Shown piece by piece: positions 29,222 to 63,068 of a DNA stretch of 64,000 bases. The DNA comes from Streptomyces sp. TP-A0356 (GTDB lineage: Bacteria; Actinomycetota; Actinomycetes; Streptomycetales; Streptomycetaceae). Location: the NCBI RefSeq assembly GCF_001417775.1, contig NZ_BBZJ01000020.1, forward strand, positions 382,422-446,421, in the 5' to 3' direction. Each line of letters opens with the position of its first letter. Positions within the stretch are counted from its first letter, which is position 1. The notes below the pieces were generated by a model, which made no database searches, had not been told where the DNA came from, and saw only the letters and a program-made list of their open reading frames with translations. The position numbers and the translations under genes were made by a program.

Positions 29222-29387
29222 ATCCTCAAGCACCCTTCACCAGGCGGGTGTTGCTCCTGTCGCCGGCCGGTGCGAGCCCCGTGTGAGCGGCCCGAGAAGT
29301 CCAGCATGTGAACATGTGAGCCAGCACACAGTAGTTCACCCGCATGGCGTCGATCAGGCGTGGCACACTGAGCCTGTACCAGAAGCA

Positions 29388-29514
29388 GCGCACTCCGGGG
29401 TCGGTGAAAGTCCGAACCGGCGGTTACAGTCCGCGACCCGGTCGCTTCCAGCGGCCGGTTGACCAGGTGAAATTCCTGGACCGACGGTTAAAGTCCGGAT
29501 GGGAGGCAGTGCGC
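29388..29514 (+). promoter_or_regulatory. FMN riboswitch (RFN element)
   Basis: The conserved RFN blocks appear in order: CGGGGTCGGTGAAAGTCCGA, ACCGGCGGTTACAGTCCGCG, GGTGAAATTCCTGGACCGAC, GGTTAAAGTCCGGATGGGAG. The closing P1 stem is GCGCACT (29388-29394) with AGTGCGC (29508-29514). It lies 150 bases before ribE and should switch the riboflavin operon off when FMN is high. Bases 29222-29387 upstream must hold its promoter, which I could not place. Confidence 0.96.
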
Positions 29515-29663
29515 GGCGGGCGGGCACTCGTGCGCGCCGCCGTATCGGCTCGTCCAGAGGGACGGGCTCTGTCCGGCGTCGCCCCGGTGTTCTCGCCCGT
29601 GTCTGCTGTCGTCATCGACAGGCCCCGGAGTCCGTGCCCTAAAGAGGCAGGAGGACCCGGGAA

Positions 29664-59649: not shown

Positions 59650-60042
59650 ATGACTGAAGCCCCCGACCCCGAGGTCGTGGAGCTCGCGACCAAGATCTTC
59701 GATCTGGCGCGCCGAGGCGAGACCGAGACGCTCGTGGCATACGTCGACGCGGGCGTGCCGGCCAACCTCACCAATGACCGCGGCGACTCCCTCGTGATGC
59801 TCGCCGCCTACCACGGCCACGCCGGCACCGTCCGGGCGCTGCTGGAGCGCGGCGCGGAGGCCGACCGGGTCAACGACCGAGGCCAAACCCCGCTCGCGGG
59901 CGCGGTCTTCAAGGGCGAGGAAGAGGTCGTACGGGCCCTGCTGGACGGCGGCGCCGACCCGGCCGCGGGCACCCCCTCGGCCATCGACACCGCCCAGATG
60001 TTCGGCAAGAAGGACCTGCTCGAACTGTTCGGCGCACACTGA
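59650..60042 (+). CDS. Ankyrin-repeat protein
   Basis: This 130-residue protein is made almost entirely of ankyrin repeats: YVDAGVPANLTNDRGDSLVM followed by LAAYHGHAGTVRALLERGA, EADRVNDRGQTPLAGAVFKG with EEVVRALLDGGADPAA, then a shorter capping repeat. It is a protein-protein interaction module with no enzymatic residues. The ATG is at 59650. The partner is unknown; its neighbours smeA/sffA and the HEAT-repeat gene do not define one. Confidence 0.92.
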   Translation: MTEAPDPEVVELATKIFDLARRGETETLVAYVDAGVPANLTNDRGDSLVMLAAYHGHAGTVRALLERGAEADRVNDRGQTPLAGAVFKGEEEVVRALLDGGADPAAGTPSAIDTAQMFGKKDLLELFGAH

Positions 60043-60343
60043 TGCGAACGCTCTGACCAGCGAAGACGACGAAAACGGGGGAGGCGGTACGGGGCCGCCC
60101 GAAATAAGGTCGCGGCAGCGAGAGACGCCGGGTCATCATGACGTCGTGGTTCACGGACGCGATGGCTGGGCAGGTGTTGCCGCACCGCGCGGACCGTGAT
60201 GCGGTCCGCACGGGCCACCGACGAGAGGCAGAGGAAGATGGTCTACAGCAAGCAAGAGACGGCGGGTGCCCCGACGTGTTGTCACGCGGCCAGGTAGTGC
60301 GTGTTCCCCGGTTGCGTCGACGCTTGATGTGAGGCTGTTTCCC
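60043..60343 (+). other. 301-bp leader region of the HEAT-repeat gene
   Basis: It holds a perfect hairpin, GCGGACCG (60189-60196) with CGGTCCGC (60202-60209), and a 19-codon reading frame at 60238-60297. Both suggest a regulated leader rather than a plain promoter. The overlapping 64-codon ORF (60138-60332) has no GC bias and is not credited. Confidence 0.55.
60238..60297 (+). CDS. Candidate 19-residue leader peptide with Cys-Cys-His
   Basis: The frame reads MVYSKQETAGAPTCCHAAR and stops. GAGGAAG precedes the ATG, so it has a plausible ribosome binding site. The Cys-Cys-His run near the end resembles the codon runs of attenuator leader peptides, where slow translation at scarce Cys or His could alter RNA folding. 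It lies 46 bases before the HEAT-repeat gene and just after a perfect hairpin. I think similar peptides occur in other Streptomyces, but cannot verify it. It may also be chance. Confidence 0.5.
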   Translation: MVYSKQETAGAPTCCHAAR

Positions 60344-61762
60344 ATGTTCGAACCGGTCATAGCGCCCAGCGGTACGCTGCTCGGCCTGCTCCAGAGGGGT
60401 CGCGGCGACGGTACGCTGCATGCGCTCACCGCACCGCGTGCCGAGGCGCTCGCGGCTCTCGACCACTGTGTGCTGCGCGACCCCCGCCACGACTGGCAGG
60501 TGGAGAACCGCTCCCTGTACTACGCCCGGCTCTACGTCGATCTGAACGGCGAGCTGGACGGCATCGAGGCCCATCTCTTCAGCGCCGAGGACGTCCTCGA
60601 CACCGACGAGTGCCGCACCGGGCTGTCCCTCGCGGTCCTCGGGCACCTCGCCTCCTACGGCAGGCGCGACGCGCTGGAACTGCTGCGCAGGTACGCGGCC
60701 TCGGGCGCCAACTGGGCCTGGGCCCTCGACGAGCTGGCGCTGCGCGACGACGACGCGGGGCTGCGCGCCCTCGCCGCCCCGGTCCTGGCACGCTTCCCCG
60801 CCGACGCCGAGGGCGAGGCCGAACTCGCCGTCGCCGTCCGGGACGCCTTCGAACCGCGGCCCTGGCGCCTGTGGGCCGACGACCCGCGCGAGTCCATCGC
60901 CACGCGGGTCCGTGCCGCCCATGAGGCCGGCTGTTTCGACCGCTGGCAGCGGCAGCTGCGACCGCAGGGACCCCGGCCGGGGTGGAGCGTGCAGGCCGTC
61001 TTCGACTGGGCCCAGCAGGGCATCGAACGCGGCGCCGCGCTCCATGTGCCCGCCGCCCGCTGCCTCACCGCCGTCGCGGGTCCCGAGGACCGCCCCGAGA
61101 TCGTCGAGGCCGCGCGCGGGGGCAGCGACGGGGCGCGTTGTACCGCCCTGCGCTACCTCGCCGACGGCGACGATCCCGACGCCCTCGATCTCATCGAGGG
61201 CGCCGTGTCCACCGGATCCGCGCTCGTGGCCGACGCGGCCGCGGACGCTTTCGAACGCATGCGCAGTATCGCTGCCGTCGAGCGGGCGCGCGGCTGGGCC
61301 CACCGGCCGGACGTTCTGGGTGCCGCCGCCGGGCGCATGCTCGCCTGCCGGGGCGGTGCCCAGGATCGCGACCTGGTGCTCGCGGCGCTGCGGGAGGCGG
61401 TACGGGGCGAGGGCCCCGACGCGCCGACCCTGTGGACCCTCGTCGACGGCGCCGGACGGCTGGAAATCGCCTGCGCCGCACCCGTGCTGCGCCATGTCTA
61501 CCGTGAGACCGCCTCGTCCCATCTCCGCGGCCGCGCGGCCCGCGCGCTCGCCGCCACCGACCCCTCCTTCCCCGCCGGGTTCGCCGTCGAATGCCTCTGG
61601 GACTGCGAGGAGTCCACCCGCGAGATCGCCGCACGGCACGCCGAGACCGGGGACGCCCGTGTCGTCGAGCAGTTGCGCCGGCTCGCCGCGGATCCGGCCG
61701 AGGAGGCCGAGGTGCAGACAGCGGTACGCAGCCGGATCGGGCCCGACATGCCTGCCGTATGA
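60344..61762 (+). CDS. HEAT-repeat domain protein
   Basis: This 472-residue protein is rich in helical HEAT-like repeats, for example AVLGHLASYGRRDALELLRR, ARCTALRYLADGDDPDALDL and HVYRETASSHLRGRAARALA. It contains no recognised catalytic motif or membrane segment, so it is likely a scaffold. The ATG at 60344 is preferred; the frame is open upstream to 60266 through the leader. Function is unknown. It is preceded by the leader-peptide candidate. Confidence 0.87.
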   Translation: MFEPVIAPSGTLLGLLQRGRGDGTLHALTAPRAEALAALDHCVLRDPRHDWQVENRSLYYARLYVDLNGELDGIEAHLFSAEDVLDTDECRTGLSLAVLGHLASYGRRDALELLRRYAASGANWAWALDELALRDDDAGLRALAAPVLARFPADAEGEAELAVAVRDAFEPRPWRLWADDPRESIATRVRAAHEAGCFDRWQRQLRPQGPRPGWSVQAVFDWAQQGIERGAALHVPAARCLTAVAGPEDRPEIVEAARGGSDGARCTALRYLADGDDPDALDLIEGAVSTGSALVADAAADAFERMRSIAAVERARGWAHRPDVLGAAAGRMLACRGGAQDRDLVLAALREAVRGEGPDAPTLWTLVDGAGRLEIACAAPVLRHVYRETASSHLRGRAARALAATDPSFPAGFAVECLWDCEESTREIAARHAETGDARVVEQLRRLAADPAEEAEVQTAVRSRIGPDMPAV

Positions 61763-61901: not shown

Positions 61902-63068
61902 ATGCGTGTCGTCATCGTGACCGAATCCTTTCCCCCCGATGTGAACGGCGTGGCCCACTGCGCGCTCCAGACCGCCCGGCACCTCGTCGATCGCGGTCAC
62001 GTTCCCCTCGTCGTCGCTCCGGCCTCCCCCAAGTCCTCGACCTCGTCCGGACCGGGAGGCAGCGCCATCGCCGGCACCGGGCCGGACGCCCTCGCGCCCT
62101 GCCCCGTCGTCCGTGTCCCCTCCCTTCCGCTCCCCGGCTACCCCCAGGTGCGCGTCGCACTCCCCAGCCGACGCGTCGCCGCGGCCATCACCGAGCACCG
62201 CGCCGACATCGTGCACCTGGCCAGCCCCTTCATCCTCGGCGTCCGCGGCATGGCGGCCGCGGCCCGGCTCGGCATCCCGGCCGTCGCCATCTACCAGACC
62301 GACCTGGCCGGATACGCCCGCACCTACATGGGCGCCGGCGAGGCGGCGGCCTGGCGGCGCATCCGCTCGGTGCACGCCGCCGCCGACCGCACCCTCGCAC
62401 CCTCCAGTGCGGCTCTGCAGGACCTTGAGGCACACGGCATTCCCCGGGTGAGGCTGTGGCCGCGCGGCGTCGACACGGTCCGCTTCCGCCCCGACCTTCG
62501 CAATGAGGCCATACGGCGGGAACTCGCCCCCAACGGCGAGCTGATCGTCGGCTACGTCGGCCGGCTCGCGCCCGAGAAGCAGGTCGAACTCCTCGCCGGT
62601 GCCTGCGGACTGGACGGCGTACGCGTCGTCGTCGTGGGCGACGGGCCGAGCGAGACGAGCCTGCGGGGCGCCCTGCCCGGCGCCGCCTTCCTGGGCCGCC
62701 GCACCGGCGACGAACTCGCCCGGATCTTCGCCTCCTTGGACGTCTTCGTGCACACCGGCCCCTTCGAGACGTTCTGCCAGACCGTGCAGGAGGCCATGGC
62801 GAGCGGTGTTCCGGTCGTCGCGCCCGCCGCGGGCGGGCCGCTGGACCTGGTCGCCCACGGCCGCACGGGACTGCTCGTCCCCCCCGGCGACGTGGCCGCG
62901 GTGCGGGACGCGGTGTGGGCGCTGGCCGTCGACCCGGCGCAGCGGCAGGCGTACGGGGCCGCCGGACGCGCCACCGTCGAGGGCCGCACCTGGGCGGCCG
63001 TCGGCGACCAGCTCATCGGGCACTACGCCGATGTGCTCGCCGAGCGCCGGACGGCGGTGGCGGCATGA
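61902..63068 (+). CDS. GT4-family glycosyltransferase (mannosyltransferase-like)
   Basis: This 388-residue GT-B enzyme has the N-terminal TESFPPDVNGVAHCALQTAR typical of the MgtA/PimB-like group. It also has IYQTDLAGYAR, RGVDTVRFRP, IVGYVGRLAPEKQVELL, and the nucleotide-sugar-binding FETFCQTVQEAMASGVPVVA. It probably transfers mannose or a related sugar from a GDP-sugar to a lipid or glycan acceptor. It is predicted cytosolic or membrane-associated. The ATG is at 61902, and its stop overlaps the next glycosyltransferase by 4 bases. Confidence 0.9.
   Translation: MRVVIVTESFPPDVNGVAHCALQTARHLVDRGHVPLVVAPASPKSSTSSGPGGSAIAGTGPDALAPCPVVRVPSLPLPGYPQVRVALPSRRVAAAITEHRADIVHLASPFILGVRGMAAAARLGIPAVAIYQTDLAGYARTYMGAGEAAAWRRIRSVHAAADRTLAPSSAALQDLEAHGIPRVRLWPRGVDTVRFRPDLRNEAIRRELAPNGELIVGYVGRLAPEKQVELLAGACGLDGVRVVVVGDGPSETSLRGALPGAAFLGRRTGDELARIFASLDVFVHTGPFETFCQTVQEAMASGVPVVAPAAGGPLDLVAHGRTGLLVPPGDVAAVRDAVWALAVDPAQRQAYGAAGRATVEGRTWAAVGDQLIGHYADVLAERRTAVAA

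Follow-up and report, generated by a model that had tools for sequence, protein, structure and literature searches.

A gene without an assigned function in Streptomyces sp. TP-A0356 is preceded by a short open reading frame that carries Cys-Cys-His close to its stop codon, which raises the question of whether translation of this frame governs the gene and, if so, which amino acid is read. A sequence-only reading of the locus had proposed translational attenuation by cysteine or histidine supply, built from a perfect hairpin, a 19-codon frame and a downstream HEAT-repeat gene. We examined the proposal in a 64,000-nucleotide stretch (the window) of the 8.4 Mb genome, in related loci, in folding models and against the literature. 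Our answer, which we hold with about even confidence, is that 60102-60343 forms a translational leader: the start of the HEAT-like gene is opened by translation of the upstream open reading frame (uORF), probably prolonged at its cysteine codons.

The locus and its target gene

From 5' to 3', a promoter-like box pair is followed by the hairpin, a Shine-Dalgarno (SD) stretch, the uORF, the SD box of the HEAT-like gene (HEAT SD box) and the gene itself (Table 1).

Table 1. Features of the leader and the adjoining genes, in window coordinates
Feature	Position	Strand	Remarks
Ankyrin-repeat gene	59650-60042		5' of the leader
Conserved promoter-like element	60102-60146	+	Boxes AAATAAGGTCGCGG (60102-60115) and GGGTCATCATGACGTCG (60130-60146)
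5' leader hairpin, GCGGACCG-TGATG-CGGTCCGC	60189-60209	+	Direct sequence; arms 60189-60196 and 60202-60209, loop 60197-60201; perfect 8 bp
SD region of the mini-ORF, GAGAGGCAGAGGAAG	60223-60237	+	Columns of alignment A2 (55 leaders) mostly invariant or nearly so
Predicted helix H1, 5' strand: uORF SD end, start codon, codons 2-6	60233-60253	+	RNAfold, RNAalifold per clade, duplexes
19-codon uORF MVYSKQETAGAPTCCHAAR, TAG stop	60238-60297 (stop included)	+	Cys codons 14-15 at 60277-60282
Predicted helix H3, 5' strand: uORF codons 15-19	60281-60294	+	Pairs with left half of the conserved box; RNAfold, duplexes
Predicted helix H3, 3' strand, CCCGGTTGCGTCGAC	60307-60321	+	Conserved box, left half; most A2 columns nearly invariant
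Predicted helix H1, 3' strand with SD of the HEAT-like gene, GCTTGATGTGAGGCTGTTTCCC	60322-60343	+	
Target gene, 472 aa, helical-repeat (HEAT-like) protein	60344-61762	+	ATG start at 60344

Both the hairpin and the 19-codon frame ending in TCCHAAR are present as first read, the ribosome site of the frame lying directly before its ATG. Perfect 8-bp hairpins are not rare within the window, which holds 39 (loops of 3-8 nt, overlaps counted) against 13-36 in ten order-2 Markov windows. The mini-ORF, in contrast, is rare for its surroundings: a filter for an ATG start, 14-24 aa, an SD-like site and Cys-Cys in the last nine residues returns it as the sole match on both strands, and 20 Markov windows together contain two such ORFs. 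The hairpin sits 5' of the uORF and is not a predicted masker of the HEAT start. When 156 distinct 5' segments were folded, every one was predicted to form an uninterrupted stem of at least 4 bp, and 153 one of at least 5 bp. The mean z against mononucleotide shuffles was -1.54 (52 segments tested), and one hairpin pair, across 80 segments fitting the clade A pattern, occurs as G-U in 39, A-U in 19, G-C in 16, A-C in 5 and U-C in 1.

The promoter-like element accompanies the uORF closely. Within it, the GGGTCATCATGACGTCG box holds the inverted repeat GTCAT-C-ATGAC (also noted as GTCATCATGAC), and it occurs at no more than three mismatches in 186 of 187 uORF leaders. At the same threshold it was found in 147 of 148 uORF loci vs none of 24 uORF-less loci (21 Streptomyces and 3 distant), where the best match has at least four mismatches. 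The two boxes stand 13 or 14 nt apart in the 147 leaders with both scored, and the element ends 91 nt ahead of the uORF ATG in 85 of these 147, with distances of 36-121 nt across the set. The element gave no match to the sigma-70 consensus. We infer a promoter here, with a transcription start just 3' of the boxes.

The gene start at 60344, as read earlier, agrees with conservation: the frame 5' of this position is not kept, because the spacer between uORF stop and HEAT ATG varies in length (44-114 nt, with 129 of the 187 leaders at 45 or 46 nt). The 'HEAT-repeat' label is weakly supported, HEAT_2 (PF13646) matching at E 0.003 with 18.2 bits, under the Pfam gathering score of 27.7. Neither an NCBIfam search nor a sequence search of solved structures gave the target protein any match up to E 1. 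Its structure model is all-helical and weak (pLDDT 65, pTM 0.38; alignment with just 22 close sequences), and Foldseek with this model reached a best E of 2.9e-3, its matches being helical-repeat proteins. As the model is weak and no match came at E 0.001 or better, the fold search is at most compatible with a helical repeat. Among the NCBIfam and Pfam matches we found neither a tie to cysteine nor a resistance family. It is the leader alone that suggests a thiol link for this protein.

Presence and history of the leader

Homologues of the HEAT-like gene occur in 126 of 199 relatives, all those of at least 60% identity lying in the window's own genus, and in 119 of 121 sampled genomes of that genus. 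We analysed 107 of these 119 (30 + 77 loci), the other 12 being mostly partial or weak matches, and added 80 named loci; as these are the best 80 of 553 related stretches, they are close relatives only, and the nearest among them at the locus are all Streptomyces. The 190 oriented loci gave 172 distinct ones with at least 230 nt upstream, and in 148 of them the uORF lies directly 5' of the HEAT-like gene.

A covariance model of the leader matched 125 of 297 genomes of the family, in one of 17 genera, and 23 of 296 genomes of the class, in one of 114 genera, with one match per genome, under stricter filters that can lose weak matches. From the 125 genomes we took 40 regions with weaker scores and dropped one of them (L221, interrupted at a contig end), which brought the full set to 187 leaders. 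These encode 101 distinct peptides, 17-22 residues long; two uORFs missed by the search pattern (L235 and L254) were placed by hand. The 39 leaders added in this way are not independent evidence of presence, because they were chosen for matching the model. The HEAT-like gene lies directly 3' in 39 of the 40 new regions, the fortieth being the one at the contig end. There, unrelated sequence flanked on both sides by GGGGATGTC breaks the leader 3' of the uORF stop, which is possibly an insertion or an assembly artefact.

The stop codon of the uORF is TAG in 102 leaders, TAA in 49 and TGA in 36, and all eight indels within the uORF in alignment A2 (55 rows) are multiples of three, whereas spacers outside it shift by single bases; both observations are to be read knowing that the ORF search itself demanded an open frame. 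A mini-ORF not conserved or not translated in related strains would, by the first reading's own terms, have refuted it; on the side of conservation the proposal stands, since comparison of the leaders shows frame, cysteines, boxes and gene order kept across a large Streptomyces clade, S. coeruleorubidus ATCC 13740 (L056) being one carrier. We consider it very probable that the uORF is real and translated.

Patterns for the uORF ribosome site and the HEAT SD box revealed no other copies in the source genome: the ribosome-site pattern has 17 further matches at two to three mismatches, fewer than the 52 of a control with the pattern reversed. For the HEAT SD box, the pattern GGTTGCGTCGACGCTTGATG occurs once at up to three mismatches.

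The 55 representatives with a uORF form one group in the protein tree, nested in a series of uORF-less Streptomyces branches. As the uORF-bearing genes group together, one gain of the leader within Streptomyces is the simplest reading, which is not proven given the weak node support (0.20 for the uORF-bearing node alone, 0.92 with the nearest uORF-less neighbour, L157). By eye, the DNA 5' of the gene looks quite unlike the leader in uORF-less Streptomyces (L157-L166, L176, L178, L180-L188): TTGCCA-like and GATGCT-like boxes, separated by about 17 nt, lie immediately ahead of the HEAT ATG. The adjacency of these boxes to the ATG suggests that the HEAT mRNA of these relatives may be leaderless. 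The spacer holds extra sequence in several clade B leaders (L140, L141, L145, L146, L149, L241, L244-L248), where short hairpin-like inserts lie between uORF stop and box; the spacer reaches 94 nt in these insert-bearing leaders and 114 nt in L224, and the box is untouched.

Late cysteine codons and selection on the peptide

At least one Cys is present in 186 of 187 peptides, and in as many of them Cys falls within the last six residues; 149 have at least two, 37 have one, and one has none. Two or more lie in the last seven residues in 148, the first Cys is at position 14 in 127, and the pair is adjacent in 135, the rest being split, single or absent. Among distinct uORFs, adjacent pairs are found in 37 of 61 in clade A, 34 of 49 in clade B and all 12 in clade C. 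The single uORF without Cys (L223, MVDTKQKTTGGIRWHRAA) stands in a leader that has also lost the greater part of the box's left half, the H3 partner, with the HEAT SD half intact. Of the two supplies first named as the signal, cysteine is the better candidate. Histidine supply was rejected, 76 of the 187 peptides having no His at all, and the motif Cys-Cys-His is not kept.

At the codon level, clades A and B differ. In clade B the Cys codons vary often synonymously and seldom in residue (pS 0.62 vs pN 0.16), and for this reason the cysteine residue itself seems to be kept there. In clade A, codons 2-13 resemble weakly constrained coding sequence (dN/dS 0.33-0.40), and the last six codons have a pS of 0.034 vs 0.255 in the HEAT gene, with a dN/dS of 4.36. 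Since synonymous sites in this tail are frozen while residues change, the constraint would be on the RNA, and the conservation of cysteine in clade A is therefore confounded with it. Selection thus probably acts on both peptide and RNA. Codon choice is skewed as well, with a UGU:UGC ratio of 161:76 in distinct uORFs vs 45:101 in the first 100 HEAT codons (Fisher P 1.7e-12, for sequences that are related to one another).

A peptide of this kind could act in ways other than reporting on tRNA supply. Its basic head and C-x-x-A-A tail, with Thr at residue 8 in 156 of 187 peptides and Ala-Ala in the last three residues in 153, would suit a nascent chain that arrests in response to an antibiotic or a metabolite, as in erm-type or whiB7-type leaders. 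We judge this quite unlikely, as the residues of the clade A tail vary freely and the downstream protein matches no resistance family. It is also conceivable that the peptide of 17-22 residues is itself the product, for example a metal-binding microprotein using Cys and His, and that the conserved boxes are its own expression signals. The conserved frame is in line with such a product, but the uORF is far less constrained than the HEAT gene (dN/dS 0.69 vs 0.14 in clade A), the Cys-Cys-His motif and even His are dispensable, the HEAT SD box is conserved more than the peptide, and the uORF precedes one and the same gene in nearly all of the model-picked regions. We therefore give this idea very little credence, the least of the explanations considered here.

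Predicted masking of the HEAT start and the proposed switch

If the uORF is translated and cysteine is kept near its end, the remaining question is how this could reach the HEAT-like gene. A scan for GC-rich stems followed by T-runs found no terminator-like site in 60000-60420 (Rho-dependent or T-less kinds lie outside such a scan), and attenuation of transcription at an intrinsic terminator was set aside. The mode would thus be translational, as first proposed, and the RNA can be modelled as masking the HEAT SD. In the RNAfold structure of the window's leader, helix H1 joins the uORF SD, start codon and codons 2-6 to the HEAT SD box, and helix H3 joins codons 15-19 to the box's left half. RNAalifold consensus structures, built from 13 sequences of clade A, 14 of clade B and 5 of clade C, likewise set codons 1-6 opposite the HEAT SD box. 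Across 55 representatives, 90.7% of cells in H1 and 88.4% in H3 are paired, vs 36-47% with the partner slid by one to three columns.

The box that serves as partner is close to invariant, GCTTGAT and TGAGGC being unchanged in the 55 rows of A2 (the later leader L257 has GCTCGAT). Covariation did not rise above shuffled controls in the 55 leaders (89.7% paired vs 89.6%); because shuffled 3' letters pair equally well, there is no covariation signal beyond conservation. A tree-based test of pair-keeping was null for H1, with 55 pairs kept and 57 lost where 50.3 kept were expected (P 0.19; also P 0.26), and marginal for H3, with 38 kept and 39 lost where 31.7 kept were expected (P 0.048). On the box side, more changes break a pair than keep it (7 kept and 21 lost in H1, 21 kept and 24 lost in H3). 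In the innermost block, C-R-R-G-C against GCUUG, which was picked post hoc, each of the five pairs is broken in at most 2 of 173 rows.

When duplex energies are compared with those of synonymous re-codings, H3 is in the strongest 5% in 29 of 55 leaders (mean share 0.19) and is unremarkable in most of clade B, and H1 reaches this range in just 8 of 55 (mean share 0.24). Swapping H1 and H3 strands across clades showed no clear clade specificity; clade C uORFs, for example, averaged -26.3 with the clade A box vs -23.7 with their own.

Invariant boxes of this extent go beyond the needs of an SD, and together with the inverted repeat in the promoter-like box they might point to a riboswitch or an operator, a leader bound by a ligand or protein, with the uORF as a mere bystander. 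This we regard as very improbable. At gathering score Rfam has nothing at the locus, and up to E 5 it gives there one match, BSnc150, on the other strand (17.1 vs 73 bits); the fold is no more stable than that of dinucleotide shuffles (z -0.97 and 0.13), and the conserved frame, stop and cysteines point to a translated uORF. The one Rfam element in the window is an FMN riboswitch (RF00050) at 29386-29516 (+), with 98.9 bits.

A further measure of masking is what it costs to open the HEAT start itself. Natural leaders need 11.05 kcal/mol on average vs 8.34 after synonymous re-coding with HEAT-gene codon usage, and the natural cost exceeds the re-coded mean in 58 of 64 leaders (25/27 in clade A, 29/33 in B, 3/3 in C and 1/1 in D), the mean share of re-codings with a cost at least as high being 0.17. 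As the leaders are related, these are not 64 independent tests; the clades agree. When only the RNA 3' of a ribosome at the first Cys is folded, the cost drops from about 11 kcal/mol to 6.1 in clade A, 5.7 in clade B and 4.3 in clade C, a fall to which the synonymous comparison is the better control, because folding less RNA lowers the cost for any leader. A ribosome at the uORF start alone gives 6.5 (A), 6.9 (B) and 9.3 (C) kcal/mol. With a single stalled ribosome and pairing allowed around it, the values are 9.2 in clade A, 10.4 in B and 11.5 in C, compared with 11.3, 11.0 and 10.9; the model therefore requires either that pairing near the stalled ribosome is blocked or that another ribosome is present. 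The SD as such remains largely paired in the models, its unpaired probability on modelled release rising just from 0.23 to 0.34 in clade A, from 0.27 to 0.30 in B and from 0.21 to 0.35 in C. Masking of the HEAT start and its release thus find support in the folding models and re-codings but not in covariation, fold stability or the unpaired probability of the SD, and a switch is plausible if a ribosome blocks nearby pairing or a second one loads behind it, with a modest range in the models. We consider it probable that the uORF controls the HEAT-like gene in cis, at the level of translation.

The same opening costs and re-codings would fit plain translational coupling, in which uORF translation frees the HEAT start without sensing any amino acid, and cysteine follows from an RNA need for a UGUUG-like sequence or from constitutive slowing. 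That the clade A tail is frozen synonymously yet tolerates residue changes, and that 24 of 61 distinct clade A uORFs have just one of the two Cys, speak for such coupling; the near-universal late Cys and its survival of synonymous changes in clade B speak against it. We find it rather unlikely. That cysteine is the sensed signal we believe with a little less than even confidence.

The switch that we favour would work as follows. A dedicated promoter would give an mRNA with the 5' hairpin and the SD-led 19-codon uORF. While the uORF is empty of ribosomes, H1 would form between its codons 1-6 and the HEAT SD box, H3 between its codons 15-19 and the left half of that box, and the HEAT start would be masked; a ribosome on the uORF would break H1 and H3, and the start would open. 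The one to three late Cys codons are the likely dwell site, and slow delivery of Cys-tRNA would hold one ribosome there; a second could occupy the start codon, so that the HEAT start stays open. We infer uORF translation, stalling at cysteine and induction under cysteine limitation as its steps: because translation of the uORF would open the start and dwelling at Cys would prolong the opening, HEAT expression would be expected to rise when Cys-tRNA is scarce. In erm-type translational attenuators, the translation state of a leader ORF likewise frees a masked downstream SD. The present leader would differ in that the masking strand is the start region of the uORF itself, and the inducer of erm-type systems is a macrolide.

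More tentatively, and with some doubt, we suggest that this cysteine-sensing translational switch was gained once in Streptomyces in place of a leader-free ancestor, that it ties a helical-repeat protein to thiol or cysteine status, and that masking by the uORF start region lets ribosome loading and Cys dwell be read together. If so, an unassigned gene found across Streptomyces would gain a functional lead, its dose following translation of a Cys-codon leader, and control by such leaders would extend beyond cysteine genes. Related Streptomyces with and without the leader offer a natural comparison.

Leaders with Cys codons are known from other bacteria, and the present one is probably a member of that kind with an unusual target, undescribed in the literature searched. 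One close parallel is with the mycobacterial polycysteine leader ORFs (Canestrari et al. 2020, doi 10.1111/mmi.14498, as presented in PMC9094748 and PMC9031893), short ORFs before a gene, where downstream translation is reported to depend on ribosome speed at Cys codons. According to the account in PMC9031893, those ORFs are leaderless and their Cys codons contiguous, whereas the Streptomyces uORF has its own SD-like site directly before the ATG, a putative 5' UTR following from the proposed transcription start, and usually two Cys. The mycobacterial ORFs also precede cysteine or sulphur genes; here the target has just a sub-threshold HEAT_2 match, which leaves room for an indirect link.

Similar comparisons apply further afield. 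In Rhodobacterales, the uORFC-8-2 leader before cysS has tandem Cys codons usually at 14 and 15, as described in the relevant part of PMC8632094, and these are the commonest positions here too. It differs in carrying a U-run consistent with an intrinsic terminator and in preceding the cysteinyl-tRNA synthetase gene, whereas our locus has no terminator-like site and a target without a known cysteine role. For actinobacteria, Seliverstov et al. 2005 (PMC1262725) proposed Cys leader peptides that precede cbs in B. longum and cys operons in both Mycobacterium and P. acnes, and that share with ours the Cys runs near the stop and the lack of an obvious terminator; unlike ours, they precede cysteine genes, and the sections of that paper on these leaders name none for Streptomyces cysteine. 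Cys-rich leader ORFs have also been noted by ribosome profiling, as mentioned in PMC4633059. Within the genus, S. lividans TK24 has short leader ORFs in 5' UTRs as well, the eight leader peptides listed in PMC8079986 depending on Leu, Trp, Ala, Ile, Met or Thr; none of those listed is Cys-dependent or lies before a HEAT-like gene. In the parts that we covered of the largely open-access literature on Streptomyces leaders, Cys leaders and HEAT genes, we found no description of the present leader. Its distinctive traits would be an SD of its own, a target without a known cysteine role and, from the folding models, a masking strand in the uORF start region.

Downstream of the HEAT-like gene lies a family-4 glycosyltransferase gene (61902-63068, +). 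Its best NCBIfam similarity is to GlcN_PG_synth (154.6 bits vs a cut-off of 480), and similarities to MshA and BshA are seen too, far under their cut-offs.
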